Below are positions 10,081-58,703 of a DNA stretch of 64,000 nucleotides, piece after piece. The DNA is from Brachypodium distachyon (lineage: Eukaryota; Streptophyta; Magnoliopsida; Poales; Poaceae). The DNA is taken from assembly GCF_000005505.3 (NCBI RefSeq), contig NC_016131.3, positions 43,113,355 to 43,177,354 of the forward strand, in the 5' to 3' direction. A program made the translations under genes and the position numbers. The notes under the pieces are model-generated. The model was not told the origin of the DNA. It saw only the letters and a list, made by a program, of their open reading frames with translations, and ran no database searches. Each line of letters begins with the position of its first letter. Position 1 is the first letter of the stretch.

Positions 10081-10140
10081 GGCAGGGCTTCGCCGTCGGG
10101 GAGAGTGAGGAAGCGCTGCTGGTCCAAAATAGACACGCGC
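10081..10140 (-). promoter_or_regulatory. Conserved leader module of CACTA-A gene B
   Basis: On the minus strand this reads GCGCGTGTCTATTTTGGACC, then AGCAGCGCTTCC, and ends GGCGAAGCCCTGCC. The same pattern lies in front of gene A in this element and of genes A/B in CACTA-C and gene B in CACTA-B. The original TATA-like box (about 11033-11042) is now about 0.9 kb away because of the solo LTR. Confidence 0.65.
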
Positions 10141-10178
10141 TTCAGATACGAAATTTTCGCCAAGTCCCGTTCTGTAAT

Positions 10179-11029
10179 TGTTGTAGTAAAATAAAACCCT
10201 TATATGGGCCGGGCCAAAAATCCTACGTGGGGACGACTAAGTCAACATTTCCCTACAAGAGTCAAGATGCCTACGTGGCACGGTCAGTCCTAAGTGGCAA
10301 CAAGCAAGATTAGTCAACAAGTCAAGCCTCTCATGCCATGGTCAAAGGGAGAAATGAGTTTGAGTAGGGGGCAAGAAAGGTGTGAGAAGGGGACCCTTAG
10401 TCCATGGTGGACCATGGACCAAACCCCTCTTTTCCCACTTGGTGCACACAAAATCTATGGACCAAGAAGCTACTTTTACCATTTTGCCCTCACTTTTCTC
10501 TCTTCCCCAAGGGTAGCCATGGTCTTTTGTCATGGACCCCTAGGCTATAAATACCCCCATGGGGGCATGTACCATTCACTCTCACTTGAATAAACTCAAG
10601 GGGAGAGGGGTAGAGAGCCTCTTTGAGAGGAGCTCTAGTTTCGAGATCTTGGGAAGCCTCGTTCGGTCTGAGCCCGAAGGAGAGGGGATCGGGTTAGAGT
10701 CCTAAGGATACCTCGACCTCGCTACTTGGGAAGCCTCGTTCGGCCCAAGTACGAGGCGGCCCCTTTCAACCTCTCGCTAAGTGATTCGGGGAGCCTCGAT
10801 CGACCCGAAACACTTTGGCTAACGATTTCCTCAAAGCCTCTCCTAACATAGGACTAGGTCGCACCCGCAGGGTCGACCGAACCTATTAAAAAAATATCGA
10901 CGTGTCAACTTGTCCAAGTGTACGACGACCTTCGCTATAAGGCCGGCGTACACGCCTTACCTTTGTACTCGCACTTGTGCCATCGAGGTTTGGCACCCCT
11001 TACTCTAATTGTTGTCGAGAACAACAACG
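10179..11029 (+). mobile_element. Solo LTR inserted in CACTA-A
   Basis: About 850 bases that CACTA-B lacks at the matching place. It starts TGTTGTAGTA and ends ...GAGAACAACAACG. The 5-bp duplication GTAAT flanks it (10174-10178 and 11030-11034). A TATA box (TATAAAT, 10546-10552) on the plus strand is followed by a leader rich in GGGAAGCCTCGTTCGG-type repeats. The 3' end lacks the canonical CA by three bases, so the exact border is uncertain. No internal retrotransposon sequence is present, as expected after LTR-LTR recombination. Confidence 0.75.
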
Positions 11030-11030
11030 G

Positions 11031-12120
11031 TAATATATATAGGGAACATCACCAATGGCGGGTATTTAGTGGATACCCGTCACTGGTGACCCCTCCTAGG
11101 GTTACTGGTACAGGAGACCACCGGTGGCGGGGATTTCCGGATACCCGCCATTGGTGATCCACCAGTGGCGGATATATGAAAACCCCGCCACTGGTAATTG
11201 GAACAAGAGTGAGGGTTCACCACATTCCTGTTCCACGCACCAGTGGCGGTGATATTTTATATACCCGCCACTGGTTAATATTTTGCCTCTAGTATTATAT
11301 TCTTATTATATTCCGTGTCTCTTTGAAAATTTTAGCACCTATACTTTCAAGTGTATAATAATTATTTCTTGTCTCACTAAAGTTTTCAATGCTAAATACA
11401 TTGCTGAAAATGAAATATTTATGCTTTTGTAGTGTTTACTGTGGTTAAAACTTGTTATAAATTACAAAATTGCTCAGAATGGTCTGATATTTGGCATGGA
11501 AGCTTCTCACACAACAATATGCCTGCACATGAAGTTTGGTGTCAAAATTCCAAATGAAGCCCATAAGAATACCATATGGAGATCATCTACGTAGCTATCT
11601 CTCATACCTTCTAAACCAACATCCAAATTGTAACATTAAAACAACTTTGAGCTTGATCTTTTCAATGTGGCTTCATTAGACAGAGAGGTGTTCCCATGCA
11701 AAGTTTTAGCTCATTTCGATGAAAATTGAATTTTATGAAATTAAATTAGCAGAAAAGCCACACATAATCACATAAATTTGTATGAAATATTATGAATTAA
11801 TGTCTAAAACTTGTATTGGGAACAAACAATATTATTATACACCCAAAACTACAACTGCTATATTTTTTGGGAACGCAGAAAATATAACACTGCATTCTGA
11901 AATCATTACCAGTTGCGGGTTTCACACAAATCACTGCCACTGGTGAGCGGGACAAGATTTCGGAAATCCCTAGGTCTTGTAGCACTCACCAGTGGTGGGT
12001 TTCAGGAAAATCACCGCCACGAGTGCCCCCTTCCGGTGGCGGGTTTTCCTGTAATCACCGCCACCAGTACGACTTCCAGTGGTGGGTTACTGTGACGCCA
12101 CCGCCACAGGTGGCCTTCTC
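11031..12120. repeat. CACTA-A internal array of subterminal-type repeats
   Basis: Two clusters (11046-11275 and 11905-12120) of the CAGTGGCGG / CCCGCCACTGG motif lie between gene A and gene B, far from either terminus. About 600 bases of AT-rich DNA without coding signal separate them. The right-hand repeats of the first cluster sit immediately upstream (minus-strand sense) of a TATA-like box at about 11033-11042. CACTA-B has the same arrangement. Confidence 0.8.
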
Positions 12121-12209
12121 CGGGCTGCTGTGCGAGGCGAAGTGGGAGTTTAGTCCCACCTCGCTAGTTTACAAGCGTTTCGACCAGCATAAAAGAACTT
12201 CTCCGAGTT

Positions 12210-14642
12210 ACTGTTACGCACTCTTCTGCATGATAGCCTTCCATGATGCTTCCTTCGGGACGCCCTCTGTTACGAACATATCGCTTCAGCACCCCGTTGT
12301 ATCGTTCGGGCCCAAACATGTTGTGCAAGAACGATGGCCCTAACAACAAGATCTCATCGGCGACGTGGACCATCAGATGGACCATAATGTCGAAGAACGT
12401 TGGGGGAAAGAACATCTCACATTCGCACAATATGTGTATCATTGCGTCCCTCAGTAGCAGGCAACGGTCCATCGTAATCGACTTCTGGCCGATCGTGTTG
12501 AAGAAGTCGTAGAGAGCTTCATGACCGTATCTCTCACGCATGGCTCCATGCAGCCTCATATTGCAACCGGAAGTAGCTGCGTGAGAATCACGTGGCAGTC
12601 ATGAGACTTCATGCCAACCAGCTTGTGGCTCTTCATGTCAATGGGTTTCTTGATGCTAGATGAGTAGTTCGATGAAACTTTGATGCCATGGAGACACTCG
12701 CACATTCTATGCAGCTTGGCTTTGCTCAGACTGTAACACGCAGGTTTGCATCGTATATATATCGTGCGTTCACCATTCTTGTTTTTCTGCGGTGCCTCTT
12801 CCTCTATCGGCCACAGCTTCTCCCTTATCCCCATCCACTGCAGGTCCTTCCGTGCCTTTGGTCCATCTTTTGACTTGCCCGCGTGGTGCATCATCAAGTG
12901 CAACAGGATGTCGCACACGTTCTTCTCGACATGCATGACGTCTATGGTGTGACGGCTCTATAAGAACCTCCAGTAAGGCAGGTCACAGAATACGGACCTC
13001 CTCTTGTACGTAAGGCCGCCATCTGGACCAGCAGCCGACAGTGCTTTGTCGGCCACGACTTCGAGGTCCCTGACAATTTCGTATACTTCATGTCTAGTCA
13101 GTTCCCTCGGTTTGTGCTGCCTCTCTGCCCTCCCGTTGAAGTTTTTATTATCATCCCTCCACGAGTCCTTCATCTCCAGCCACTTACGGTGTCCCATGTA
13201 CACAATCTTTTTTGATTCTGGCAGAAACAACCCTTCTGTCTCGTCCCTGCACTTTGTACACGCTTTGTACCCATGTGTTGACTGGCACGATGAGTTCCTG
13301 TTCGCCGGGTAGTCATGCACACATGTCAGGAGAGCTGCTCGAAGGGTGAACTCCTCCTTCTTATGAGCGTCCCAAACCTTTTGACCCTTCTCCCAAAGCT
13401 CCTTGAGCTCATCCTTCAGCAGCTCCAGATACACGTTCAGATCAGCTCCAGGCTGCTTAGGGCCTTGTATGAGCATTGATATGTGGATGTACTTCCTCTT
13501 CATGACAAGCCACGGGGGAAGGTTGTATATGAACAGGATCACCGACATGTGCTGTGTTTGCTGCTCAAGTTTCCGACCGGATTGATCTCGTCCGTACTCA
13601 TCCCGAACCTGATGTTCCTGGGCTCTGCGCCGAACTCGGGGAATTCATCGTCCAGAGTCCTCCATTGAGCCGCATCTGCGGGGTGTCTTAGGACTCCATC
13701 ATCGTTGCGGTACACGCCCTCGGAATCGATATCCACCTGAGTCGCGTCGTGGTAGACGAACCACCTGGCCTCCTTCTCGTTCTAGAACCAACGCTCCAGC
13801 CTGGTGCCACATGGGAGATACCAGACCGTCTTTGCCGTCGGACCACGCTTCACTTCTTCCTCCTCGCCGCCGTCAGGATTGGGGTCTTTCTTCCTGTATC
13901 AGAATGTTTTGCATACTGGACAACTGTGCATGTCTTTGTAGTCGCCCTTATATATGATGCAGTCCAATGGACAAGCATGGTATCTGATGACCTCTAATTC
14001 GAGGGGGCCTGTAACTTTCTTCCCCTCGTACGTACTCTTAGGCAACTTGTTGCCCGGAGGAAGTACCGTACATAGGTAACTTAGAATCTCCGTGAATCCT
14101 GAGTCCACGATGTTGTATTTTGCCTTTATACACAAAAGCTCGAGCGTTACTTCTAGCACACTATTATCCACCCCGGCATTTTCATATAACGGTGTCTCGG
14201 CATCCTCCCTCAGCTTCTCGAACTTACGGGACACGCTCTCATCCTCGGGGTCATCCAACTGATTCTGCAGATGCTGATCGTCCAGCGTTTCAACCATCCT
14301 ACCGGTTGGAACGTCCTGTACTGGATCCTCGCCACGGTATGCTTCTTCACCAGGCTGGTCGTCAGACTTCATGTTTTCCATCTCAATGCCTTCATCGACT
14401 TCAATGCCATCCTCCCCGTGAGATGTCCACTTTGAATAACCAGACACAAATCCCCGCATGAGCAAGTGCATCCCGACATCCTCTGGCTCGTACAGCTTGC
14501 TGTTCCGACATCTCACACAGGGATAACACATCTTATCACCCCCTTTCCTATGCATATCTTCCACGCCGGCATCGACAAAAGTCTTCAGCCGCTCTATCCA
14601 CTCAACATGTAACCTGTCCTCGTACATCCAAGCACGGCCCAT
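12210..14642 (-). pseudogene. CACTA-A gene A: TNP2-like transposase, truncated and broken
   Basis: Start MGRAWMYEDRL at 14642 is a typical opening of the TNP2 transposase-associated domain, which continues through CYPCVRCRNSKLYEPEDV. The transposase_21 region follows, with GVLRHPADAAQW, NLPPWLVMKRKY, LRAALLTCVHDYPAN and HTIDVMHVEKNVCDI. Then comes the DUF4218-type region with GPERYNGVLKRYVRNRGRPEG. Breaks: stops in KTF*YRKK (about 13900) and ERWF*NEK (about 13780), a frameshift after SSKHSTCR (about 13540), a stop after WRFL (about 12958), and a frameshift after LLPVAI. Compared with CACTA-B, the C-terminal part and its flank (about 1.4 kb) are deleted at about 12205-12215. Family members cut DNA at CACTA termini as a DDE transposase; this copy cannot make the protein. 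Confidence 0.85.
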
Positions 14643-14949
14643 CGAGCTACAACACAATTTTAAAAAAAAACGAATCAGCTTGATCGACAAAAATGGAAAA
14701 TTTCGGCATGACCTTTGCTAAAAAGTTAGCATTTTGCACTACGAAATTCGATGCTTGTATCAAAAACAAATTACCCCGACCCACATCGGCACGACGACCG
14801 GTATCACATCACATAATAAATACACGGCACGAAGGCCGGTGTCAACACACATTTAATATGCTTGAACATACACGTACACCGATCCTGAGGTTAAGCTTAA
14901 CCCTGGGGCTAACCCCCAGGGGCTAAGCTCCCCCATAAGCAGCAGCGGC

Positions 14950-15060
14950 CATGGACTCCAGAGAGAGAGCTAGAGAGAGAGAGCTGCAGAGAGAGAGCTA
15001 GAGAGAGAGGGAGCTCATCGGAGCAAAATTAAAGCGAGAGAGAGAGGGATTCGGGAGGGA
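14950..15060. repeat. GA-rich simple sequence in CACTA-A
   Basis: Interrupted GAGAGA runs with AGAGAGAGCT units, just upstream of gene A in its leader. Simple-sequence expansion; no coding signal. Confidence 0.8.
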
Positions 15061-15272
15061 GGGCCCTCACTAGGGTGAGGGGGAGCTCTAGAGACAGCGG
15101 GGGCAGCTCGAGAGAGCCGCCAGAGAGAGATCGGGGCCGGATTTGCCACCACCGACCACCGCGCCATTAATGGCTTTTTGGCCAAATTGAAGAAGAAGAA
15201 GCGGATGAAGAAGGGAGAGAAAGAAGAAGGAGAAGGGGGGAGAGCTACCTTGGAGCCGCCGCCATCAATTTT

Positions 15273-15370
15273 GGCAGGGCTTCGCCGCCGGTGAGGAGCA
15301 GAACCGCAGCTGGTCCAAGACAGACGCGCGAGCTTGAACAGCTTCGAGCTCGCACAATAGTTACATATAG
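15273..15370 (-). promoter_or_regulatory. TATA-like box and conserved leader module of CACTA-A gene A
   Basis: On the minus strand a TATA-like CTATATG (about 15364-15370) is followed about 34 bases on by the leader module (15330 down to 15273): CGCGCGTCTGTCTTGGACCA, GCTGCGGTTCTG, ending GGCGAAGCCCTGCC. Repeats of the CACTA-A subterminal array lie directly upstream. No start site has been measured; the promoter call rests on the repeated architecture. Confidence 0.6.
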
Positions 15371-15374
15371 GAAG

Positions 15375-15900
15375 GTCACCAGTGGCGGGTGTATGGATAA
15401 ACCGCCACTGGAGGCCTCAGCAGTGGTGGGTAACTTGAGACCAGCCATTGGAGATCGCCCACCTATTTCCCCGCTTTAGTCCCACCTCACTAGTTTACAC
15501 GAGTTCCGACCAGCATTAAAAGGATTCCGCCACCCCACTTACCGGTGGTTACTACTCAGTGCTCAGTGCGTTCCTCGTTCCGGTGGAGTACTAAACTAAT
15601 GATCGGGCGGTGCTTAAGGGGTTCAAGGAAGGTCACTGAGACTGAGTAGTACCATCATGTATCGGGCGGTCTACCAGTGGCGGGTCTTTTTTAAGGCCGC
15701 CACTGGTGGTTGCTAGGTGTTCCATGGGCTTTTCCAGTGGCGATGACAAACACGGCCACTGGTGATGGACCACCAGTGGCGGTGACTTGTTTCGGGACAA
15801 TATTCACCGCCACTGGTGGCGCTCGTGGATGCCTCGAGAGGCCTCTAATGGCGGTGTGTTTTTTTGTCCGTTTTAACCGCCACTGGAGGGGGATCACGGA
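15375..15900. repeat. CACTA-A right subterminal repeat array
   Basis: CAGTGGCGG / CCGCCACTGG motifs near 15379, 15402, 15672, 15697, 15733, 15752, 15771, 15807 and 15878, in both orientations. A separate module (15475-15521, TTTAGTCCCACCTCACTAGT... ending CAGCATTAAAAGG) lies inside and recurs at 12149-12195 and 59826-59873. Confidence 0.8.
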
Positions 15901-15923
15901 TGGGGTTTTCTGTAGTAGTGATA

Positions 15924-17002
15924 TAACTACAGATTAACAGTTATAAAAAACCCGAGTTGACAATCCATATCTATTTGTTATAGCCTTGTATGAAACATTA
16001 GATTACCAAAGATACGTAGCACAAAAATCATCACAAATATACATGCAGATTTTGGTGAGGCATTTACAAAAAAATATAACTATATATTTGCTAGTGATCT
16101 GTATTTCTATGAGACTTATTATAGCCGCCTTGTTATGAGCACTCGTAAATATTAAATTGATTCCCAAAATCAATACAAATTCACCTATTCAAATATTAAA
16201 TGTTGAAAAATACAATGTCATACAAATTATTAAAAAGCTAAAAAATATATCAAAATACATTGTTGCAACAATAAATAAATATTACATGTTATGTGTATAG
16301 ATATTAGATCGCCCTACCTCAAAAAAGAATTGTGCTTCGCATAGACGCGAGGACGAGGGACGAGGAGTTGAAGGGGGCGGCGCGCCGCCGCTTCGCTGTG
16401 TTTGCCGGAATCGAAACGAAGGTGAGAGAGGTTTCCAGCCACACTGTGGCCGCCGCGTGTTAGGGCTTCCCCCTCGGCGTTGGAGGGGAATGGAGCCGAG
16501 ATGGAACAGAGGGCGACATTGGGCCCGGTGGCGTGAGTTCGAACGAAAATAAATGAACCGATCAGGGAGGAATCTGGGCCTTATTTTTAGCCCACGGGCC
16601 AGGAATTTAAACTCCAGAAAGCACTTCATTTGGTACGGATTAATTCGCATAATTTTGAAAGCACATGAATAAAAAAAACATAAATATTGAATGTTATACT
16701 ATGATGAGTTGTACAAGAATTCAAAACATAAGAATTTGCAATAGAAGCTGCTTGATTTCACTATAGGAAAATACCGTAACTTGCTTGAAGGATTAGATAG
16801 CCATGGTTGTGATAGGAAACAAAAGAAGCTTTCCTTTGGATTGCAAGCAAACTAGCCCACAAGAAAAATTATGGGCCTCATTATGTTTTCATAGATTAAA
16901 ATACAAGATTTCAGCCGTTAGGTTTTTTTCTCTGTGTCTATTTCATAGGAATATAGATGCTAGAGGTATGTTTGGTTTTACCCCTATTTTGCCATGCTAA
17001 AT
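15924..17002. other. Intergenic, AT-rich with a GC-rich island
   Basis: Mostly AT-rich non-coding DNA. A GC-rich stretch at about 16300-16560 is open on the minus strand for 122 codons, but its composition (Arg/Pro/Ser-rich) and lack of any recognised motif do not support a gene. Confidence 0.4.
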
Positions 17003-17011
17003 TTTTGTTGA

Positions 17012-18318
17012 GAGAAAATTACTCAAAACCACCACATCTAGGGCACATGTTTAGGAAAACCACCTTTTTTTTCTTTTATTTTCAAATTACCACCACTTTC
17101 TTGTTCCGTTGTACTCCCGCGCACTGATTTCGCTGTTGATCTCGTTTTGACGGAAAAACTGACAGGTAGGCCCACCTGTCGGTGCCACCGTGGTGCCACG
17201 CTGGACAAAGGGTGTGAACCGGCCGCTCCCTGTCCCTGTCTTTCTCAGACGAAGCTGCCGCCGCAACTCTCCGGGTCCTCCGCGACTTTCCCTCCGCCCA
17301 CCCTTTCAGGCAAGTACTTTTCTCGTCTCCTTCGCCGGTTCGCCGCCCCTCGCCTCCGTCTCCTCCTCCTCCCAACCCCGACCCTCCCACCCGCGGGCTC
17401 TCGGCGGCTACCGCGGCCGCGGCAGGGCAAGCGGAGCGTGTGGATGCCACGGAGCGCGCGCGGGAGCTCATCATGCCGAAGTCAGGCTCCGATGCGGGGC
17501 GGTTGGGGCTCGCGGGGATTGAGGCCGAGGGCTGCTGGAGAGGCTGGAGGATGGAGATCCCGGCGCCGTTCATCTGTAGCGCATGCCATGGCGACCAGAT
17601 GGGGCGTAGGCGGGCGGCAGGATCCACGGGAGGGCTGCAAACGGATCCAGAGGTGGGGGGAGACGGTGGCCAGGGCGGCGGGATCTCAAGGAGGCTGGGG
17701 TGGCGGCGGCGGGATCTCGAGCGGGCTGGGGAGGAGGTTGCGTCGGGGTTGGGCTTCTACGCGAAAGGGCGGAGGAGGTACGTCAGTGCATGGGCCCATG
17801 TTGCTGGTGGCATGCGGACCGGCTGCATGCCGACAGCGTCTGTATTCACGGGGACGGCGGCGGCTCGTTGGGTGCACGACGAATCTCTGGAGGTGCATGT
17901 TGTCAGGTAGTTTCTGTACTCGCGGAGATGGCGTCGGGCGGAGCGGCCGAAGTCGGGCTAGAGAGTCGACAGGAGATGCGTGGGGCCATCTCGGTGCAGG
18001 GGAGGCTTGCAACGATGCCGGGGAGGCGTTGTAGCGGTGCCTTTGGCGGCCACAGAATCGGCCGGAGCTGAGGAAGATGAGCGCGCGGCTCGGGTGCGGT
18101 CTGGTTCGGCCACTGTTGACTTCTTGTGCCAGCATGGAGCCAACGTGGACCTGACATGTGCCCCCGCCTCCCCCCCCCCTTAATTTCCGTCCAAACGAGA
18201 TCAACATCGAAATCAGTGCGCGGAAGTACAACGGAACAAGAAAGTGGTGGTAATTTGAAAATAAAAGGTGTTTTCCTATACATGTGCCCCAAATGTGGTG
18301 GTTTTAAGTAATTTTGTC
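17012..18318. mobile_element. Mutator-like element (MULE) with long terminal inverted repeats
   Basis: Ends are inverted copies of each other over roughly 130 bases: left GAGAAAATTACTCAAAACCA, right the complement of GACAAAATTACTTAAAACCA. Both continue through a CACCACATxTxGGGCACATG block and a ...TTTCGxTGTTGATCTCGTTT block. A 9-bp target duplication flanks it: TTTTGTTGA (17003-17011) and TTTTCTTGA (18319-18327), one mismatch. The interior (about 17180-18180) is strongly GC-rich, unlike the TIRs, and has no MuDR transposase. This is the make-up of a Pack-MULE that carries captured genomic sequence, but I do not recognise the source gene. Confidence 0.85.
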
Positions 18319-18327
18319 TTTTCTTGA

Positions 18328-19758
18328 AGATTTTGATTTTCCATGAGTTGGTCAAAATTGGCAAGAAAAATAAAGTAGAGTTGCCAAAAAGTCGTTGGGT
18401 TGCAAAATCATTGGCTACAATCCTTAATTTATAGACTATCTCAAGAGCGATGAGAAATAGAAAAGATAGATACAAATAATGAATGAGCTAATTTTGGTTG
18501 TTGAAGAGCGGATGAGTACAAAACGGAGCACGAGAAGGAAGTGTTTGCCAGCTAAGCTTGATAGACCGGATTCTTTGTCTATTCGGTCAAAAAAATTCTA
18601 TCTTATTGGAGGCACGGGTTTAGGTTCCGTCTTTGACATTCAAAACCTAGACCAAATACCCGTGACATATGTAGAAGTCACTAAAACTCTTAAACCAAAA
18701 CGTAACTCCTAACTTCTCATATTTTTCTCCAGCAATTCGTTTGGCACCACCATTTGGGTCTAGAATTTATTTTGAATTTCAAAAACTAACTTGTTTGGTT
18801 GGCACGGAATTGGTCACGGAAATTCAATTTCAAATTTCATGAAATCGCACTATAACAAATCTTAATTTCTTTCTAAAACCAATTATTTATTTGGAATTGT
18901 CTCTTCATCTACAAACCCCATGTGGCAGACAAACATCATTTTGAACCAGGAATTCAAATTCAACGAAGTGAAATCTGATCAGAAAATAGATTTCATTTCA
19001 TTTCCACCAAATGAAATGGAATGATGGATGGCAAACCAGCTGTAATGTCTTTTGCATCGTTCCTCTCGTCATGGGGTGAGCGGATGATTATGATTTAGGT
19101 GCGTGCATGAATATTCTTTGTTGGCGTCTTTTCTTAAGAGCCCTACTACTGCCCAGAGCCACGCTTTGGGTTCGTCAGCTCGTACCTCGTAGCACAGTCA
19201 CACAAACAAAGAAAAAGGATTGAGACAGAGCCAACACTCCCGATGCCCAACTTTTGTTCGGAACCCATCACGCCATGACCTTACTCAACGTCAGATCATG
19301 CATGCGATCGAGCGTGCGACGTCTCTGGATCGAGTTCCCTTTGGGCCAAAGGCACATCAAATTAAGAGCCCGGCTGCCCAGAACACGATCGACCTCGCCG
19401 GAATCCAAAAAGGCTGCAAACAACAACGATATGGGCGTTACAGCGTACCGTCAGGGACGAGGAGTCGAGCAGGAAGAACACACGGAAACATGCGCAAGTA
19501 GTGGATCAGTGGGCATGCAGATCCAGTGCATGGGCGCAGCCTTCCGTTGCATGCATATACGGTCTCTGCAGCGGCAGCAGGGCAAAGGCCCTTTCGCTTT
19601 CAGGGGTGCAGAAGCAGAACGGTGTTCCTGGCTTTGGGTACGCCAGGCAGCCAGTACGTGTTAGCCCAAACCACTTTGGCAGGTCAACGTAGCGACCACT
19701 AACTAGCTAGTGATCCACTTTTACCTTGTGAGCTGCTTTGGGCTACTTGCTTGCTTCA
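18328..19758. other. Intergenic, no gene recognised
   Basis: AT-rich to about 19130, with TTTGGCACCA / AATTCAAATTTCA-rich sequence at 18720-19020 that resembles decayed MITE DNA. 19200-19700 has moderate GC with short open frames on the plus strand that match no family I know. Confidence 0.4.
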
Positions 19759-19760
19759 TA

Positions 19761-19846
19761 CTCACTTCTTGCGTCTCATAGTTATTGTCGCTGTTTTAAT
19801 ATTAATTTAAACTAAAACAACGACAAGAACTATGAAACGGAAAGAG
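19761..19846. mobile_element. Short Stowaway-like MITE
   Basis: An 86-base near-perfect hairpin flanked by TA on each side. The arms carry TCATAGTTATTGTCGCTGTT and its inverted copy AACGACAAGAACTATGA; the right end CGGAAAGAG is a worn Stowaway terminus. Confidence 0.7.
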
Positions 19847-19848
19847 TA

Positions 19849-23510: not shown

Positions 23511-23515
23511 CTACA

Positions 23516-42739: not shown

Positions 42740-43035
42740 ACGACACATCACTAACGGGTCCGGCGCGACCGTTACTAATGAACAACATCAGTGTCGGTCG
42801 CGGCCGCGACCGTTACTGATGAACAGAGCGGGGTCTGCCCGTCTCCGCCGAACCATACATCAGAGGCAACCATCACTGATGAACAATCATACCTCGCGAG
42901 ATACATTAGTGGCGGTCAGTTAAGAGGCGACCGCCACTGATGAACCACGCGTCAGTAACGGTCGCCCTAACGCGACCGTTACTGATGTACCCCCTATTAT
43001 CAGTAACGGTCGCCCAATTCCGACCGCCACTGATG
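42740..43035. repeat. CACTA-C left subterminal repeat array
   Basis: Many copies, in both orientations, of ACCGTTACTGATGA / CATCAGTAACGGTCG and related GACCGCCACTGATGA motifs between the terminus and the gene A promoter. Confidence 0.85.
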
Positions 43036-43045
43036 ATCGTCGCGG

Positions 43046-43140
43046 TTTAAATACGCTGGGCAGAGCCGCAGCTGGTCGTGTTGCGCGTCGTAACGGACCA
43101 GCTACGGCTCATCTTCCCCGACGACGGCAAAGCCATGCCG
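43046..43140 (+). promoter_or_regulatory. TATA-like box and conserved leader module of CACTA-C gene A
   Basis: TTTAAATAC (43046-43054) follows the repeat array directly. About 35 bases later the leader module starts: GCGCGTCGTAACGGACCAGC, TACGGCTC, ending GGCAAAGCCATGCC (43083-43140). It matches the modules at 15273-15330, 47518-47580, 10081-10140 and 58601-58658. A run of about 20 C lies just downstream (43184-43203). Confidence 0.6.
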
Positions 43141-47277: not shown

Positions 47278-47466
47278 ACATCAGTAACGGTCAACTACTG
47301 TGTGACCGTTACTGATGTATAGGAGCACATCAGTAACGGTCGGTCGCTCTGCCGCCCGTTATTGATGTAAGCACATCAGTAACGGTTGCTGAGCCTCCCG
47401 CCCGTTACTCATGTGTGGGTGATCATCAGTAACGGTCGCGCGGTTACGCGACCGCCACTGATGTGC
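47278..47466. repeat. CACTA-C internal array of subterminal-type repeats
   Basis: Eight or so copies of CATCAGTAACGGTC / GACCGTTACTGATG lie between gene A and gene B, some 5 kb from either end, right in front of the gene B TATA box. CACTA-A and -B have arrays in the same place built from their own, different, motif. Confidence 0.85.
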
Positions 47467-47473
47467 TTCGGCA

Positions 47474-47580
47474 TATAAAAGGAGCGCCGAAACCCTAGCC
47501 CGTCAATTTCCTCGCCTGCGCGTCGCTTTCCTAGCAGACCAGCAGTGGGCGCTCCTCCTCCCCCAGGCGAAGCCCTGCCG
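47474..47580 (+). promoter_or_regulatory. TATA box and conserved leader module of CACTA-C gene B
   Basis: A clear TATAAAA (47474-47480) directly after the internal repeat array, then about 38 bases to the leader module (47518-47580): GCGCGTCGCTTTCCTAGCAG, ACCAGCAGTGGGCGCTCC, ending GGCGAAGCCCTGCC. This is the best-preserved copy of the shared promoter unit. Confidence 0.65.
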
Positions 47581-48615: not shown

Positions 48616-48826
48616 AGTGCTTCGTTTATGTGAATTGTGGGCCCAACCATCATGTCGGGTCATTGGAGAAGGGGCCGGCCATCGTCCCGAGGGGGTACAT
48701 ATGCGGGTGGGTTTTTTCATGCAGGTTTCGAGCTCCTAGTAGACAAAATTTGCTAGTTTTTAGCATAGGTCATGCCGAAATTTTCGGCCGATATATATTT
48801 GATGGTTTTGATGGCATAGGTACGAA

Positions 48827-51800
48827 ATGGGCAAGAGTAGCCAGAAACCAGTTCTTGATCGGGAGGAGGTAGATCGTGTCGATGAAAAGAGTCTTCATCA
48901 GGAGAGCAAATTGCCAGCTCTGGCTCAGGTAGCTCTCGTTCAGAAGAGCGCGACAACGAGCGACGGGTGGAAGAGAGTAACCCGCAGCCAACTGAAACTC
49001 CCGCTAAAAAGCCAAGGAAGAAGACGCCGAGGGGGAGCCACAACTTGAAGGAGTTCTGTTACGTGGTCACCCGGCACTCTGAGAGAGGCCGCCCGGAGTC
49101 GCCTGAGAGGGCACAGAAGGCCTTCGCAACGACCTGTGAAGCCGTTGCACGTAAATATTGCAAGATCACCGACGAGTGGAGTGACATCTCCGAAGTCGTT
49201 AGAAACACGTGCTTCGCGGACGTTGCAAGGAGGTTCCAAGTCACTGACGAGTGGCGCGAGCGATTCCTAGCGGCCGTCAACATAGCAGTGCGCAATGGAC
49301 TTGCTAATTGGAAAACCACCGCTAGAAAGTGGATGGACAAACCGTGTGAGATCATCAAGAAGAAATGGCCGTCGATAACTGATGAGGCCGAATGGGACAA
49401 AGTCAAGAAGGAATCATCTGACCCTGCCTTCATTGCGAAGAGTGAACGTATGAGGGCGTTGCGCGCGAGGAAGCCCATGAACCACAGGCTAGGGAGTGCA
49501 GGGAAAGAGGGGAAGAAGAAGGTTTGGCGCAAGCAAGACCGAATTCTCGAGGCGGCAGGCAGGGTGCCTCCAGTGCATGACATGCTGGAGGACCAACGTG
49601 CTAGAGAATATGCACGTCAGCACATGACACCAGAGGAGTGGGCGGGCATTGAGCCAATGCAGCCGCCTGTTAAAAAATTTACGGTAAGGGTTCACGCGCA
49701 TTTATTTGTTTTCGGCGTTAATTATGACACTCCTAATCCATATAGACTCACGTCATGTGTTATATGGTAACAGGAAAATGCCCACAAATGAGAGAAGAGC
49801 AAGAAGTCAGAAACATCCAACGACTCCGTGCAGAGCAAGAGGTGGGAGTCGGCTGTGACCGTCGGCTTGCAAAAGGCGGAGCACACGGGCCGTGTTTTAG
49901 GGGAAGGCGAAGGGGCCTGCTGGGATGATTATTTCTCGCCTGCTCCGAATCGAAGCAGGGTCCAGAAAAAGCTCCCCGCTTCTGCTGAAATAATAGAACA
50001 AGCTAAGGCGGAGGCGCGAGAGCAGACATCTATCGTGTCTCAAGAGGTGTCACGAGAATATGCTGTGCAAGCCGTTCATCATTTGGTGTCGGCATTGGCC
50101 AAAAACCACCCCGCCCTTGAAGCCATACTCGGGGAAGGAGTGGAAGATTTGAGAAACCTCCTTCCTCCTCTTCCCCCGCGAAAGAGCACCCCGCTGAAGA
50201 GCAGCGCCGCCTCCGACACACGTATGGACGACGAAGACACCTACACCCCAGGTTACAGCCCGGCTCCTAGCATGGACAACCCCCCCCCCCCCCCGCCCCC
50301 GCTAGCCAACCGGACTCAAGCGAGGGCATCCGGAATAACGATCCGGGTCCGAGCGACAACATCCTTGTAAGCATACTTTTCAAACTCTTTTTCACTCCTT
50401 ACCTTCATGAATAAAGATCTTGCACACATATATGCGTTCTTCTTGTTACGCGCAGGCACCGGTGAAGTGTCGTATCCACGTAGACAAGCCTGGGAAACCT
50501 GTAGGCGCCATTGGCCGCCTTATGAACGACGCACAAGTGAGTGTGATGGTGGACTCCGTCGTTGACGACCATCGTGATTATGCTATCCCGCTACCTCCGG
50601 AGGAAGGCGTGGATATCCTAGGAGGTTCTCCAAACTACCGCATTATGTGGCCTAGGAGCTTGGTATCTCTCTACAACCAGCGCCGGCCCTCTATGACCCC
50701 ATCTCCCTCCGCCCACAAAGTTACTTCTCAATCGCCGCTCGGCCTTTCCCCTAGGATACTTCCTCCTGTCGATGCCAGTGGAGATGAAGAGCGTGCAATG
50801 TCGATGCCTCCACAGCTCAAAGATAGCCAGACCACAGGGTCGACACAGGCTGGAAGCGTCCCTCCTACCTTCTCTCTCTTGAGTGCCGCTGAGTCCATGG
50901 GTGGCCGCAAGATCGATGACAAGTACAAGGCAGAGGAGCAGAAGGCATGGGACAATAAGAGGAGGCATAAAAAGAGGAGGCGCGGCGGCAAGACCATCAA
51001 GGAGTCATCCAATGTCAATCAAGATGAGATGCACCATGTGCCTGACATAACTGGAGTCTGGGAGGACAATAGGCCTAACATTCTCATAAAGAACCCCCGT
51101 CAAGGCCAGATATTCGAAGACGGATCCTATTTCGTGGCTAGGGAGTTTGACCAGGTGCTTCTTTACTATCCTGGAAGACCGATGGTCACCAAAAATTCCC
51201 TGCATGACGTGTTCAGAGAGATGCAAGAGCTTCATCAATTCTACATGCAAGCATCAGCTAGTTCTCAACAGCATGCCTAACAGATCAATGTTTGAATCCC
51301 AAAAGACTATGACTTCTTTGACCAAGAAACCGAGAACATTCAGGAACGTCCTATCACCTTTGGTGTGGAGTTCAACGAACTGTTCCACCTCTTCAACCGC
51401 CAAAAGCTTCATATCAACCTCTTAAGGCTGTGGTCTACCTACCAAATAAGAGAACTGCGGCGAATGGAGGTCAAAAAAGTAGCCATTCTAGACCCCGCGA
51501 TGTTCAACTACGGTGACATCGGTCTTGAGCCAGAAAAGGATCCCTCAAGAACCCTGGCATCTAAATACTTGGTGGCATGTCTCGAGAAATACGCGGACCA
51601 TGACTTTATCCTCTTCTTCCTTAATTTGGAGTAAATTCAATTTTATATATGGAACCGTTTGTTTTTTCTAATTCAGTCTTTCTTATACACCCTTAGATAC
51701 TAAAGTTTGTTTCTTTTGAAAACAGAGACCATTGGGTGACACTACTCATTTGTTTGCCTTGGTCCGTGATGTACTAATTCGATTCACTACTTCCGAAGAA

Positions 51801-52188
51801 GGGTGTTCGAGGTCGGTTTTGGAAACCCATCAAATCACTAATTAACACTGCCTGGAAAGTGGCGACCAAGGGAAAACTAGCTGGTAAAGGCTATAAAGAC
51901 GAGCCTCACCACAACCACAGGTTCCCTTGCCTGCAACAGCCGCCCGGCAGTGTGTTCTGTGACTACTACTACTGTCACATCCTTATGGAGAATGCCAGCA
52001 TGTTCAAACCTGACTGGAAGGAGTCAGTCGCGGCGATGGAAGAGTACTGGCGGCCCCGAATGACAATGAGACACCGACCTAAATGGGTCGTGCATAACAA
52101 TCAAAGGGAGTTCGCCCATCTCATCAACAATGAGGTCATCAAGCCTAGTGGGGGATTTCTACGAACGCGTGGAACAAGTGGTGTTTAG
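48827..52188 (+). pseudogene. CACTA-C gene B: TNP1-like protein with Ulp1-type protease, broken
   Basis: After a Ser/Glu-rich start comes the TNP1/Ptta-like block (49060-49680; KYCKITDEWSDISEVVRNTC, NWKTTARKWMDKPCEIIKKKW), then KRWESAVTVGLQKAEHTGRV (49828-49900). A Pro-run region (50281-50300) and a VKCRIHVDKPGKPVGAIGRL block (50460-50520) follow. Then come ITGVWEDNRPNIL (51040), FNELFHLFNRQKLHINLLRL (51369) and the protease: HWVTLL (about 51731), FDSL (about 51783) and QQPPGSVFCDYYYC (about 51930). The presumed His, Asp, Gln and Cys of the Ulp1 catalytic set are thus all present. Breaks: a stop after NAHK (about 49790; may be intronic), a stop after SSQQHA (51278-51280), a frameshift before NVPKDYDFF-like sequence, and a stop in VMY*FDSL. 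Ulp1 proteins remove SUMO-type modifiers; the role in the transposon is unknown. Confidence 0.8.
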
Positions 52189-52503
52189 GGTTCACCCACA
52201 AAAATAGATTCAAACTTGAAATGAGATACATTTGTATTCTTTTTATGTTTTTATGAAATTTTGACACTTTGTAATCAATGTCGTGAAGTGAGATATTTTT
52301 TAATTCTTTATATGCTTTAAATGATGCGTCTTTATATGCATTTGTATGCTTTAAATGATGTGATGTGATGTGCTGTGTGATGTGATGCGGTTTTATATGT
52401 ATTTTTATGTGCTGTGTTCTATATACATTCTGTGTTGTGCTGTATATACGTATTTTCTGTGTATTTTCTGTGGTTTTAATTATTATTTTAAATACCGAAA
52501 ATG

Positions 52504-52655
52504 TATCAGTGTCGGCTGCTCGACCGACACTGATATGGCAATGCGACCGTTACCGATGATGGTACATCAGTAGCGGTCGGAGCGACCGTTACTGATGATA
52601 CCCATCATCAGTAACACGAAGTTAATAACGGCGGTCCCGACCGTTACTAATAAGC
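52504..52655. repeat. CACTA-C right subterminal repeat array
   Basis: ATCAGTGTCGG / CCGACACTGAT and GACCGTTACTGATG motifs in both orientations up to the terminus GCATTTCCGTAGTAGCG. Confidence 0.8.
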
Positions 52656-52670
52656 ATTTCCGTAGTAGCG

Positions 52671-53544
52671 TCTGATTTCAGCCCCACGCCGTCCTTCCCT
52701 GACATGATCATAAACAAGTACAAGATGCGAAGCGACGTCCGCAGCGTGCACCTATTCGGGATGGGCTGTAGCTCTGGCCTGGTATCGATAGACCTGGCAA
52801 GGAGCCTGCGCCTCACGGTGGTGCTGCAGCAGGACGGGCATTGGTCGTGTATACCGAAATCTCCTCACGCCAAACAACTATCATGGCTCGCTCCTGTATT
52901 GCTTGTTCCGCATGGGCGGAGCTGCCGTGTTGTTGTCCACGTCCCCCACCAACGCCCGGTTCCGGCTCGTGCACACCGCGCGCATGCTGACCGCGGCGGA
53001 ACCGGTGCGAACACATGCATGGAGGAAGATGCCCTGGGTAACAGGGGCACCAATCTCTCCAAGGACCTCCAGAGTGTCGCACCGAGTGCGCTGAAATCTC
53101 ACATCACCATCGTTGCACCCCTTGTACTCCCGGCCTCGGAGAAGCTTCTGTTCGCGCTGTCTTTCAATTCGAAAAAAATGCTCAATGGCGGTGGTACTAT
53201 TAGGTTCAAGTTGAATGTCCGCCTTCGAGCACTTCTGCATTTACGCGGGCGACGAGGTTCAACGCAGCCTTGGCCTATCGGACGTGCACGTTGAACCGTC
53301 AAGGATGACGTTGCATCGCTTCGGGAACATGTCGACTAGCTCCACGTGGTATGTGCTAGCCTACGTCGAAGCCAAGGATCGGATGTGCGTGGGTGATCGA
53401 GTGTGGATGATAGGGTTTGGATCTGGGTTCAAGTGCACTACTGTGGTGTTACAATGCATCGCCCCAGCTGACCGCAAGATTAATAATGGACCGCTGTCCT
53501 GTGGCTGTACCAAGAAAATCGCAACAGCAGGCCTTGATAGATAA
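52671..53544 (+). pseudogene. 3-ketoacyl-CoA synthase (KCS), 3' part
   Basis: KCS sequence resumes with FSPTPSFPDMIINKYKMRSD and VRSVHLFGMGCSSGLVSIDL, which holds the active-site Cys. In shifted frames follow ALVVYTEIS (52839), FRMGGAAVLLSTSPTNARFR (52906), NLSKDLQSVAPSALKSHI-like (53054), PLVLPASEKLLFALSF (53116) and, from 53218, [20 protein letters not shown] and [20 protein letters not shown] with the catalytic His/Asn blocks. [14 protein letters not shown] ends it. HAGG is YAGD here, so one conserved His is lost. At least three frameshifts. About 15 bases of conserved coding sequence (around VVNCS) are missing at the CACTA junction. Confidence 0.9.
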
Positions 53545-53792
53545 TTAGATGCGTACTCCTGCGTAGGAGTACCACGTAACATATTATCCTCGCAATAAAA
53601 TGATTATATTTTAGAAAACCACGTGTTTCGAGGCTAAGGAGGTCTAAGGATTTGCAATAGTTTGCCACATGGTTTTTGTGTATTTCTTTTTAGAAAACCC
53701 AAAACGTCCGGATTGGTGCCTGTGACAGCAAAACCGACAAGATGGGCCCACATGTAAGATGCCACGTCAGATGGTCTCTTTTTTTCCCAACC
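53545..53792. other. 3' flank of the KCS pseudogene
   Basis: AT-rich 3' flank, then at 53700-53790 sequence (GATGGGCCCACATGTAAGATGCCACGTCAGATGG in part) like the middle of MULE-type MITEs. The CACTA-B element starts within it. Confidence 0.4.
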
Positions 53793-53815
53793 CCTCACTA
53801 CTCCAGAAACCCCCT

Positions 53816-54125
53816 CCAGCGGCGGTCAAAAAATGGGGTTGGTGGAGGTGATCACGCCTGCCACCAACTCTGCATCACTGGAGGTTTTAGCACCGGTGGC
53901 GTGTAAAATACCCGCCACTGCTGCACCGAGATCACCAATTGCGGGTAAAATACCGCCACCGAAGACCTACAAACCGCCACTGAAAAAACCTCCGGCACCA
54001 CCCGAAAACTACGTAGAGTACATCAGTGGCGTGCAAACCCCGCCACTAGAAATTTCCAGTGGCGGTCTTTGGCCACCGCCACTGGAACCTTTTCCAGTGG
54101 TGGTGGTGTATAACCGCCACCGGTA
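53816..54125. repeat. CACTA-B left subterminal repeat array
   Basis: Copies of CCAGTGGCGG / CCGCCACTG in both orientations (for example near 53895, 53911, 53971, 54027, 54057, 54077 and 54094), matching CACTA-A 5261-5575. Confidence 0.85.
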
Positions 54126-54342
54126 CTGTTTTTTCCCGAAAAAAATAAATGAATTATTTATAAAAATAAATATTCCTGTAGCACAGAAATAGCAGGAATA
54201 CAGCAGCACAGTATACAGCACCAAACAAACAGAATAACAGCAAATATATTACAAAGTTCCACACGAGTTAAACATTCAAGTCACATGCATGTATACAAAG
54301 TGTTTGAAAGAATGAGCCACAAATAGAAGTGTTCCACACAAT

Positions 54343-57300
54343 TTAGCCACTTTTGTCGACAATCCCGCCACCGTAGTAATCCCCGCTCGATTTGAGGACC
54401 TCCTTGTTGAGGATTTCGCCAATGTCCTTCTGGATCTCGTACACGAGAATTTCTGAGTTGTGCCCTAACTCGGCGTTGGCCAGAAACCAATTCCTCACTT
54501 CTTCGAAGGTCTTCTTCCCCTTCGGCTGGAAGTCGTTGATCATCTGCTGAATAGTGCGCGCGCAGTAGTAACCACAGTAGATGGATCCTTCAGGCTGTTG
54601 CTCGCAGGGGAAGTTCAAAGTGTGCCTGAGGGGAGCGTCACGATTGCGGCTGAAGCTAGGCATCGCGTACCATTTCACCGCGTACCATTTCACCGCGTCA
54701 CGATAGGCTGCGTCGATGACATATTTGATCGGATCAAAGTCGCGTTGTGGTTCATTCCCCTTGCGTCGCAGTGGATCAAAATATGTGACCCCTCCGATAT
54801 CGAGGCAGATGGCGATTGTCACCCAATGGCCGTTGTTTCACAAAAGGACGCACATTATATTAGCCAAATAATATAAGAAGCAAGTCTTCCGACGGAAAAA
54901 GATGTATGTATTCACGCGAATTGAAAACAACTTATTGTAGATGGTACAATATCAATACAAAACGGCGGTCTTGGTGCTTCAACATTAATTGAGTGAGGTA
55001 TTCAATCGCCAACCTTCTACTTTCGGCCAACAATGGGTCTGGACCAAGCAAAGTGGCATTGAAAAGAAGGGGGTCGGCGACGGCCATCTCATATTGCTTC
55101 ACACTATAGGCCTCCCTCGTGTAGTGTACACACCACAGTTTTAATATGGCGTTGTCGAGGCACTTGCGGTTGAAGAGGTGAAACAAGTCGAGAAAGTAAA
55201 TGCTGAAGGTAACGTCGTTTTCCCTCTGGATTTCCCCAGTATTGGAGTCGAAGAAGCCATAATGCTTTGGCACTCGAACCCTAATTTCCAGATTTGTTAG
55301 GTCTGCGCCTGATGATGCCACATTCATGTACTTTTCATGGAGCTCTTGCATCTCCCGTGGCAGGCGATACAAGTCATCCTGGGACACCATTGGTTGTCCG
55401 GGGTGGAACAACAAAAATTGGGAGAATCGCCTGTCCACGAAATAAGATCCATCAGGCAATCTATCTCCAACACGGGGCTGGGTGGGCATCTACAGAATGT
55501 CTGGTCGCTCTTCCCAAATTCCTTCTATCTGCGGCGCGGTCTTTGGTTTTCTTCCCGTAGAACACGACTCTTTCCCCTCCTTGGAGGAGCCCTTGCTTGC
55601 CTTGCCGCCTATCCCCCTCTTGATTTTCCTGCGTCTCAGAAAATCGGAACTGTCCGGTTTATGGGGGACCTGCATCCCAGATGGAGCACTTGGACGGGGC
55701 TCCAACGGGGCCGATTGTGCTGCGGCTCTCCGAGGGACGGGTCTTGGTGCGGATGGCTTTGGGGCTTCGGGTTTTGGCGGCGACGGAGGATTTTGGCCTG
55801 CATTGTCGTTGCTGCACTTCGCTGCGGTGAGAAGTCTCATTCCGCGGGCTCGTAGTCCAAAGGACCGGGTGAGGCGCCAAGTGGCGACAGAGGCGTCAGG
55901 CGCCGAGCGGGTGGAGACGGACCGAGGTGGGGCGACAGAGATGGAGACGGAGAAGGCTCTGTAGCCAGGACCACCAACCTCCTAGGCCAGATGAGCTAGG
56001 AGTTGACGCAATCCCTTAGGGTCGTCGCCTCTTCGTGCGGAGGATAAGGGACCGGTTCGTCCTCGAAGCCCTTGAGCACGGAGTCCACTTGCACCCTGAC
56101 CATGTCGTCTCGCAGGTCACGTGGTGCACCACGGCCGTACGCGGCACCAGCAACCCACGCGCGCCCAGAGGATTCCCCACCGTCGGCATGTGTAGCCGAC
56201 ATTTGACGCCCTTCTGCGCATAACAAACATGGCAACATCATTAATAGATTGGGGCATGATAGTGGTATTTCACTATTTTTCGTAGCGCGGGAAGATGCTT
56301 ACCGTGAGGTTCTCGTTGGGTGGCCCAAGCGGGTCAAGCTGGCACTCGGTGCCAGAGCATGAGGTGCTCTTATTGGGTAGCGGGGACGGATCCGGTGTGG
56401 ATGGGGTTGGTTGGATGGGCGCCGGCAGGAAAACACCATGATCAATGAAGTTGTCGGCGTCACGCTGGTCCCTTGCGTGACGCATGAGCTTCCTGAGCTC
56501 CTCGCTCGCCAACACCCGGATCTTCTCATCTAATTCCTCTGAGCTCTGTTCTTTGCTGGATGCCCTTCTGCGTTTGCGGGAACCTTGCTCTTTTGCCATC
56601 TGCCTACGAAAGGGTCCGAAACCGACACCTCGCATATGGCCCCCGTGCTATTTCGTTGCAGAGCATAGCTGATGGCATCATCCCACTGTTGGTTGATAGA
56701 CGAGTGGGAGCCATCCGACTCCCACTCTGCCATTGCACCCTGTATACAAAAAACAACATGCTCGGTGTTAATCTTATATGTGAGTATAAGAAGCCCAACC
56801 GATAAAAGAAGATGTCAGGACGAGGCCTTACGAGTGCAGCCTCTTGCTTCTCTGACATAGGCTCCAGGCCCGTGATTTGCGGTCATGGACGACCGCAGCC
56901 ATTTGCTGGAGCGCTCACCGCGAAGCAAAGTTGGGACCGTCGGCTGTATAGCGGCTTGGTCCAATGCGCCGTCCTCCTTCGCCCACACCTTCTCCTTTCT
57001 GGGCGTCCACGACTGCCGATGCGGTGGTCAAAGGGCCTTTTCTCACGAAGCTCCTTGTACCATTTTTGGCTGGCCTTGAATTCATCTGACCTGACCCTTG
57101 AACCTCTCCCAGTCCGCCTCTGAGATCCCCTTCCAGTGCTTGTTAACAACTGTCTTCCAGTCTTTGCCGATGAGCTTCCTGCAGTTATATTGCCACGTGC
57201 TCTGGCCCTTCCTCATGACTTGGTGCATTCGCCACTCCAACCGTCTCCTGATCTCATCATTGGCAGGCACGAACTGCTTCCATGCCGCCTCGTAACATCC

Positions 57301-58492
57301 CTACTTCACATCTTCCGGGACGTCGCTCCATCTTTGATAGATCCTAGCGCGTACCCTTACGATGGCGTTGCATGCGTTCGAGAATCTTTCTGCAGCCTCC
57401 ACCGGTTCCTCCGGGTAGCTTTCTTTATTTAGCTTGGTGACGACTCACGACTCCGTCGGCACCTTGTTCGCACCCCCCGCTTGGACTTCGACTAAGTAGC
57501 CGACTCCGTAGCCTGAGACATCGCACCCTCGGCTTCTTCCTCGTTACCTGCTCCTTCAAGGAGCTGCTGCTCCTCGGCTCCTTCAAGGAATAGTTGCTCC
57601 TCGGCTCCTTCTTCGCCGTGCTCAAAGCCATCGCTCATGGCAATTTCCGAGTCCGAGGAAGATGCCCCCGCTCCTTCTTCGACTTCTCCCTCCAAAACCG
57701 GCGGCTGCTCAGGCGCCTCTTCAACGCAAGCCTGAGGTTCCTATCCAACACTTAAAAAAGTAATTTTAAAAAAATGGAAAAATTCGACATGACCTATGCT
57801 GTAAAATAGGAAAAATTCGGCATGACCATTGCTGTAAAACAACAAATGAGTCTACCCGAAATTTATACCTGCATAAAAAAAAACTCCCACCCACATATAC
57901 CCCCTCGGCACGATGGCCGGACCCTTCTCAATGACCCGGCACGATGGCCGGGCCCACATTCCTCATATCAACCGACACGATGGTCGGGATCACATGCACC
58001 AACAACAACATATTTATCAAATAAGCATCAAATTAGCTTAAGCACCAGCAAGTTAACCTAACTAGCAGCAACATATACTAATAAGTGAACAAAAATAACC
58101 ACTTATAAGTTATATAACAAAAAATTAATTAATTAACTAAACGAACATCAAATTAACCCTAAACAGCAAATTAACCCTAAGATTCAAATTAACAGCCACC
58201 CTAAACAGCAAATGAACCCTAAGATTCAAATTAAACATGAGATTCAAACCCTAAGATAAAAAAAAAACTTACCTCGGCAGTGGCAATGGCGGCAGCGGCG
58301 TCATCGACGGCCGGGGTCGGGGCCGGGGACAGGGCTGGTCGAGGCGGCCCGGCCGCGCCCCCGGCGATGCGGGCCAGGCGGCAGAAAGGCAGGGCCGCCG
58401 AATCCGGCGGCCGGCGGCGGGACCTGCAGGGCGAGGGGCTTCCCGCTCCTCGTCGTCCGTTGCGACCCCCCGCTAGGGTCCTTCGAAGACAT
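54343..58492 (-). pseudogene. CACTA-B gene B: TNP1-like protein with Ulp1-type protease, broken
   Basis: Exon 1 starts MSSKDPSGGSQRTTRSGKPL at 58492 and ends at a donor near 58273, but a TGA lies in its last third (GPDPGRR*). The TNP1-like block (about 57080-57700), the DEKIRVLASEELRKLMRHAR block (56300-56590), a Pro-rich linker (55660-55960) and the IEGIWEERPDIL to LFHLFNRKCLDN region (54932-55560) follow. The protease (54343-54830) has HWVTIAICLD, YFDPLR and QQPEGSIYCGYYCA, so His, Asp, Gln and Cys of the catalytic set are intact, unlike CACTA-A. Lesions: TAG at 57301-57303 (same codon as in CACTA-A 8653-8655), a frameshift in the upstream part near 57430-57500, and a stop in VNS*LIW (about 55998). 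It retains an 80-base segment (56540-56620) that CACTA-A lost. Confidence 0.82.
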
Positions 58493-58600
58493 GGAGGCGA
58501 CGGTGGCTAGGGTTTGCGGCGGCGGCATGGGGAAGGGCTGCGGCGGCTAGGATTTGCGGCGGTGGTGTAGGGAAGGGCGGCGGCTAGGCGGCGGAGTCGG

Positions 58601-58703
58601 GCAGGGCTTCGCCGTAGGGTTAGGAGTGAGCGCTGCTGGTCTGGGAAAGACGCGCGTCTCGAATACAAAAATTTTGCAAAGTCTCGCCTTGTAATATATA
58701 TAG
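58601..58703 (-). promoter_or_regulatory. TATA-like box and leader module of CACTA-B gene B
   Basis: On the minus strand TATATATATT (about 58692-58702) follows the internal repeat array. The leader module starts about 35 bases on (58658 down to 58601): GACGCGCGTCTTTCCCAGAC, CAGCAGCGCTCACTCC, ending GGCGAAGCCCTGCC. This is the state CACTA-A had before its solo LTR arrived. Confidence 0.6.

Follow-up and report, generated by a model that had tools for sequence, protein, structure and literature searches.

We analysed three CACTA elements (A, B and C) of Brachypodium distachyon, located in a 64,000-nucleotide stretch of its 271.3-Mb assembly (C1:43113355-43177354, hereafter the window), together with related copies elsewhere in the assembly. 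Their sequences suggest that a clade of two-gene CACTA elements probably carries a pair of homologous promoters in tandem, the first ahead of the gene of the TNP2 transposase (gene A) and the second ahead of the other gene (gene B). Each promoter would comprise an array of family-specific inverted repeats resembling the element ends, a TATA box and a leader of three boxes, i.e. GCGCGTC near the predicted transcription start, then ACCAGC (within box 1) 13-23 bp further on, then GGCGAAGCC[C/A]TGCC (box 2) 27-31 bp beyond the latter. Each of the two genes is likely to have a promoter of its own. An earlier, sequence-only reading of the window had proposed one promoter unit duplicated in front of both genes of each CACTA element; array, TATA box and leader were indeed found before both genes, A then B, in several CACTA families, and the extension to every element did not hold.

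The leader module in the window and in the genome

Five leaders with one pattern had been reported in the window, and all five are present, with box 2 (GGC[G/A]AAGCC[C/A]TGCC) at every place named; no other site of the window lies within two mismatches of GGCGAAGCCCTGCC. The similarity held in formal alignment. The gene A and gene B leaders of element A scored 61 against a best of 29 among 2000 dinucleotide shuffles, 48 of 58 locally aligned bases being identical, and five of the six other comparisons within the window exceeded all 2000 shuffles (the four cross-comparisons between elements A and C, and element A gene A versus element B gene B). The prediction that gene A of element B, just beyond the window edge, carries the module held in this one case: leader, TATA box and array are all there, with TATATATA, GCGCGTC, ACTAGCTGCGG and GGCGAACCCCTGCC (the last two with one mismatch each), preceded by CAGTGGCGG repeats and followed by ATG and AG/GTAGCT.

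Some details were revised. The TATA-like box, placed 34-38 bases upstream by the sequence-only reading, was found 37-47 bp from GCGCGTC (start to start) in the four uninterrupted leaders. The array motifs of elements A and B do differ from those of element C, as had been stated, yet they are related: the arrays of element C mix ACCGTTACTGATG with ACCGCCACTGATG, and the latter contains the complement of CAGTGGCGG.

The module was then searched for throughout the Brachypodium distachyon assembly, with the pattern read backwards as control. Box 2 (GGCRAAGCCMTGCC) gave 256 matches versus 4 for the reversed pattern, and box 2 with box 1 (ACCAGCWG) upstream gave 166 versus 0. The leaders are GC-rich and the first five were chosen by eye, so that chance or low-complexity similarity was considered; these control counts, together with the constant position of the module relative to TNP2 described below, make it hardly conceivable, and it was rejected.

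Places were compiled for 245 of the 256 box 2 sites. Among them, 20 adjacent same-strand pairs of modules were found at 1.6-7.8 kb; the closest neighbours on opposite strands are separated by 11.0 and 13.8 kb. Not counted as pairs were two sets of same-strand neighbours with spacings of 9.6 and 10.0 kb, nor two modules at a distance of 30 bp, which represent a local duplication. In the direction of transcription, the order was A-type then B-type in 19 of the 20 pairs and A-type twice in one, typing being based on fetched modules for 18 pairs and on the window for two. The sole A-type/A-type pair (L039/L040, at C4:18648247 and 18652671) consists of near-identical gene A leaders on the same strand, separated by 4.4 kb; a TNP2 match lies between them, and the pair is perhaps a tandem duplication. 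Under a relaxed search, 7 of the 20 long loci L009-L028 had a same-strand partner in A-then-B order (L009, L015, L021, L022, L023, L027 and L028); none was found for the other 13, whose 9.9-kb stretches may fall short of the partner. The module set was built from 102 non-redundant sequences, of which eight were discarded as non-modules (L014, L024, L090, L094, L095, L099, L100 and L108). The typing rule is crude: it gave 42 A-type, 50 B-type and 2 unclear modules, and at least four of those labelled A (L020, L069, L071 and L079) cluster with or resemble B families.

Module positions were also compared with those of the transposase gene, using 150 scored hits out of 766 TNP2 candidates and strict module matching, which overlooks decayed modules. 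A strict module lay at most 4 kb upstream on the same strand for 24 of the 150 hits, at 1.40-1.62 kb in 23 of these 24, whereas random placement gave 0.27 upstream modules on average and at most 3 in 200 trials. Downstream, a module was found at 2.86-5.05 kb for 21 of the 150. Modules stood on both sides of 5 hits and on either side of 40, and for 2 hits a module lay on the opposite strand at up to 9 kb.

Conservation of the module

Between-family conservation was assessed on 86 of the 94 modules, grouped in eight families (clusters of at least three copies; two A-type and six B-type), eight singletons being excluded. The family consensuses were 100 % identical in GCGCGTC, 100 % in GACCAGC and 98 % in box 2, against 33 % upstream, 34-37 % in the gaps and 46 % downstream. 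As copies differ from their own family consensus at 0-13 % of box 1 and GCGCGTC positions on average, the boxes are not conserved merely because they are young. In line with the earlier suggestion for the leader, the conservation looks selected, as the boxes stay nearly identical between families next to near-random gaps. Measured start to start on the consensuses, the spacing from box 1 to box 2 is tight and that from GCGCGTC to box 1 looser. Among the 93 modules with a located box 1, 58 match [A/G/T]ACCAGC[A/T]G exactly and 87 with at most one mismatch; for GCGCGTC the corresponding counts are 63 and 85. A TATA pattern was present in 79 of these modules.

An array of the element's subterminal-type repeats stands before the TATA box. 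The gene A and gene B units share array type, TATA box and leader boxes, but in most families they differ in the gaps between the boxes. Both arrays of an element carried the same family unit in all 19 assessable pairs (18 fetched pairs and element C of the window), pairs from one family not being independent: both arrays contained ACCGTTACTGATG units within one mismatch in 7 pairs, and both lacked them in 12. Element A was excluded from this count because an insertion has moved its gene B array away from the leader. Family-matched arrays would be what a common binding protein needs.

The two types of leader also differ in places. Some A-type families have an inverted repeat (CCGCAGCTGGTC ... 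GACCAGCTGCGG) across GCGCGTC near the predicted start (e.g. L070, L075, L077 and window 43070-43110); stems of at least 9 occurred in 10 of 42 A-type leaders versus 0.6 % of shuffles, and the only B-type leader of 50 to reach 9 did so with an unrelated stem. The telo-box-like motif AACCCTA was found within the last 80 bp before box 2 or inside it in 37 of the 50 B-type modules (e.g. L019, L041 and L080), as against 3 of the 42 A-type modules, and is a possible gene-specific input. Judging from these motifs, each gene may in addition be tuned on its own. E2F-like sites were dropped as a candidate (none among the 42 A-type and 2 among the 50 B-type modules, versus about 1.1 each in shuffles).

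Start codons behind the leader

In gene A, an ATG and an AG/GTA donor follow within about 50 nt in 35 of the 42 sequences called A-type, and the phase of exon 1 is identical in 34 of these 35; the start codon lies in the same exon as the leader. For element A, the following exon (AG/C TCG ATG GGC CGT...) continues in frame by eye. In gene B, an ATG that opens an M..SQRTTRSGK-like N-terminus lies 36-133 nt past the start of box 2 in 15 of the 50 B-type modules, most of which belong to a single family group (A/B). Because the start codon directly follows the leader there, production of gene B only by splicing from gene A is argued against in the A/B group; for the other families, this reasoning in favour of a gene B transcript of its own does not apply. 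A CTG or ATG within box 2 as universal start was rejected, since its frame varies between families. One public gene model, P0006 (BRADI_4g26976v3), seems to fuse the TNP2 end to gene B and to be translated through the leader (GGKALPEFR...), a fusion that is likely an annotation artefact.

Evidence against two promoters and alternative explanations

Several observations weigh against two matched promoters in these elements, and part of them suits other explanations. The first concerns breadth: 110 of the 150 scored TNP2 hits had no strict module on their own strand, and neither did any of the 30 best-scoring ones. The wording 'each CACTA element' was therefore too wide. Given that the 30 top-scoring hits have none, the module appears to mark one clade and not all CACTA elements, and other clades of CACTA elements in this genome may rely on a different start signal. 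Several of these 30 best copies have long open frames.

Secondly, 205 of the 245 places had no strict partner. These single modules, and the resemblance of internal to terminal arrays, would suit a fusion of two single-gene CACTA elements in which the internal arrays are former ends without joint control. Such a fusion would explain the origin of the arrangement, not its inertness, and an old one-off event would need concerted change or selection to leave the same family unit in both arrays of every assessable pair. We consider this explanation unlikely.

Thirdly, in 21 of the 50 B-type modules the 200 nt that follow the start of box 2 contain no ATG, so that the gene B start must be in a later exon there. 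In the C family, public protein records (P0001 and P0003) begin with MGKSSQKS; the window codes for this peptide near 48825, inside a presumed later exon. A spliced first exon could fit En/Spm-like control, in which one promoter before gene A yields a precursor spliced to the gene B mRNA and the second module is the relic of an old duplication. Both En/Spm proteins (tnpA and tnpD) arise through alternative splicing, and mosaic transcripts are known from a soybean element (PMC2613891, available part); a lettuce tnpD-tnpA pair has contiguous transcripts, according to the portion of PMC8195511 at hand. A relic would, however, decay like the gaps, and the B-type boxes are as conserved between families as the A-type boxes; B-type units moreover retain TATA box, array and leader in several families, and a following start codon in one family group. 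The sequence thus seems to argue against En/Spm-type splicing from a single promoter, most strongly in the A/B family group, and we hold such control to be very improbable.

Fourthly, no TATA box was found by pattern in 14 of the 93 modules, and the distance from TATA to box 1 varies (51-55 bp in most A-type, 60-66 bp in most B-type modules). The boxes lie downstream of the TATA box, inside the predicted transcribed leader, and the ATG of gene A comes at most about 30 nt after box 2 begins (inside box 2 in one family). The leader could accordingly be a 5' untranslated region (UTR) signal acting on RNA (translation, export or stability) and needed by both mRNAs, the promoter parts being incidental. 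No excess of RNA folding was seen on average (mean z of -0.20 for 18 B-type and 0.05 for 12 A-type leaders), single values ranging from -2.5 to 1.8, and RNA structure in the leader was rejected on these means near zero across the 30 leaders; in some families, moreover, the CTG of box 2 and the ATG are in different frames. A sequence-specific RNA-binding protein may still read the leader. On balance we regard a 5' UTR signal as doubtful.

Further points concern sampling and alignment. Conservation of box 1 and box 2 is partly ascertained through sampling, as box 2 served to find the modules and the exact box 1 list was a further source for 24 of the 80 short loci; GCGCGTC was never selected for. 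The gene A and gene B leaders of element C were only marginally similar (score 25, reached by 4 of 2000 shuffles). Finally, gene B offered no known DNA-binding protein. Its pieces and relatives showed no Pfam DNA-binding domain above the cut-off, its AlphaFold model was too weak for a judgement (mean pLDDT 52.7) and no PDB match was found at E<=0.001, and this candidate identity was rejected on these grounds.

Putative readers of the arrays and of the leader

With these points weighed, two tandem homologous promoters are still our preferred reading. Each unit would start transcription of its own gene. The arrays would be the target of a TnpA-like protein that the element itself encodes, perhaps as the product of gene B, and that tunes both promoters; whether one repeat-binding protein acts on both is, in our judgement, an evenly balanced question. 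The leader boxes would be read by a factor common to all families, for which a host transcription factor or a downstream core-promoter reader is likelier than RNA structure, and we lean somewhat towards a leader read as DNA and not as RNA. Two readers are suggested because the leader boxes stay constant while the arrays change. More tentatively, and at less than even probability, a two-layer code may stand before each gene, i.e. a fast-changing array read by the element protein and a downstream promoter of three constant boxes that a host factor recognises. Through the array layer, anti-silencing and feedback specific to the family would then act on both genes simultaneously, and all families would exploit the same host factor through the leader.

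Elements and modules in the window

The coordinates of the three elements and of their modules are collected in Table 1. Both ends of element A begin with CACTA and have inverted terminal repeats (CACTACTCCAGAAAAC at 5245 and GTTTTCTGTAGTAGTG at 15905-15920), flanked on both sides by the 3-bp target site duplication ATA. Element C has a degenerate right end (GTAGTAGCG at 52662-52670), and its left CACTA terminus was looked for and not found. The Pfam scan for the TNP2 transposase (PF02992) took in elements B and C, with E-values of 3.2e-81 and 2.5e-78, respectively; the homologous region of element A is 93-97 % identical to B across the listed repeats between 12.2 and 14.2 kb. The TNP2 regions of B and C are 65 % identical (152 of 235 residues), so that these two subfamilies are well separated. 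The insertion in the gene B unit of element A, of about 850 bp, sits between the leader and its TATA box and array; its first 21 bases had no other match within four mismatches on the plus strand of the window. The terminal part of gene B, at window 54346-54837, is similar to a Ulp1 peptidase (PF02902; E 0.00043, 20.6 bits, below the cut-off of 20.7).

Table 1. Positions of the CACTA elements and of their putative promoter modules in the window
Feature	Position	Strand	Remark
Element A	~5245-15920	-	CACTA ends and ATA duplication
A, gene A: repeat array	15373..15910	-	subterminal, CAGTGGCGG units; limits approximate
A, gene A: TATA-like box	15361..15369	-	TATATGTAA; by eye, TATA pattern did not match
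A, gene A: GCGCGTC box	15323..15329	-	close to predicted transcription start
A, gene A: box 1	15307..15315	-	GACCAGCTG
A, gene A: box 2	15273..15286	-	GGCGAAGCCCTGCC
A, gene A: exon 1 coding part	15249..15265	-	ATG to donor AG/GTAGC (predicted)
A, gene B: internal repeat array	11041..11290	-	displaced by insertion; limits approximate
A, gene B: insertion	10180..11034	.	TGTTG...CAACA ends, probable solo long terminal repeat (LTR); boundaries approximate
A, gene B: GCGTGTC	10132..10138	-	GCGCGTC with one mismatch
A, gene B: box 1	10116..10124	-	GACCAGCAG
A, gene B: box 2	10081..10094	-	
A, gene B: likely start codon	9959..9961	-	MSSHDPSSGGRSQRTTRSGKPL
Element C	~42.7-52.7 kb	+ (modules)	TNP2 domain; degenerate ends
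C, gene A: repeat array	42746..43036	+	GTTACTGATG and GCCACTGATG units
C, gene A: TATA-like box	43046..43053	+	TTTAAATA
C, gene A: GCGCGTC box	43083..43089	+	
C, gene A: box 1	43096..43104	+	GACCAGCTA
C, gene A: box 2	43126..43139	+	GGCAAAGCCATGCC; in-box ATG at 43135
C, gene B: internal repeat array	47279..47464	+	
C, gene B: TATA box	47474..47480	+	TATAAAA
C, gene B: GCGCGTC box	47518..47524	+	
C, gene B: box 1	47537..47545	+	GACCAGCAG
C, gene B: box 2	47566..47579	+	
Element B	53796 to beyond window edge	- (gene B module)	TNP2 domain
B, gene B: internal repeat array	58711..58935	-	CAGTGGCGG units; limits approximate
B, gene B: TATA box	58695..58702	-	TATATATA
B, gene B: GCGCGTC box	58649..58655	-	
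B, gene B: box 1	58633..58641	-	GACCAGCAG
B, gene B: box 2	58600..58613	-	
B, gene B: likely start codon	58490..58492	-	MSSKDPSGGSQRTTRSGKPLA; in-frame ATG 36 nt upstream

Comparison with known systems

The elements resemble En/Spm and related CACTA elements in their CACTA ends, subterminal repeats and a tnp2-type transposase accompanied by a second protein. En/Spm has a single promoter, whereas here a repeat array, a TATA box and a leader stand before each gene. In En/Spm, TnpA binds the subterminal repeats and regulates the element, with feedback, as described in the available parts of PMC2613891 and PMC10398659.

A precedent for two promoters comes from another superfamily. The promoters of MuDR, the maize Mutator element, face each other, whereas the gene B unit found here is internal, on the same strand as the gene A unit and 1.6-7.8 kb from it, so that a MuDR-style location of the promoters in terminal inverted repeats (TIRs) does not apply. 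Repeat array and leader are also separate modules here, and the second unit is tandem to the first. In MuDR, the TIRs at the two ends serve as promoters of mudrA and mudrB, so that the two genes have near-identical promoter sequences (PMC8224964, in the portion available).

The arrays also recall those of VANDAL elements of Arabidopsis, which are Mutator-like and not CACTA. VANC proteins of VANDAL elements bind family-specific tandem noncoding motifs, which differ by family, and remove silencing, and the accessible part of PMC10398659 describes no shared leader code. Grass CACTA families with two open reading frames (ORFs), i.e. transposase and ORF2, Brachypodium families included, were already known and have the same layout; exons and ORFs are described in the available text of PMC4158355, with neither a shared leader nor two promoters. 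A study of Chenopodium CACTA elements does not use the word promoter in the portion available (PMC8978399), and no description of the shared leader was found in the open-licence PMC literature.

Conclusions

In the textbook CACTA element, splicing yields both proteins from a single promoter. Two matched promoters in one clade, if true, would permit separate dosing of the transposase and of its helper, and one repeat-binding protein could act on both genes. The leader itself provides a compact, searchable tag for this CACTA clade, and its three short boxes can be mutated individually to find the factor that reads them.

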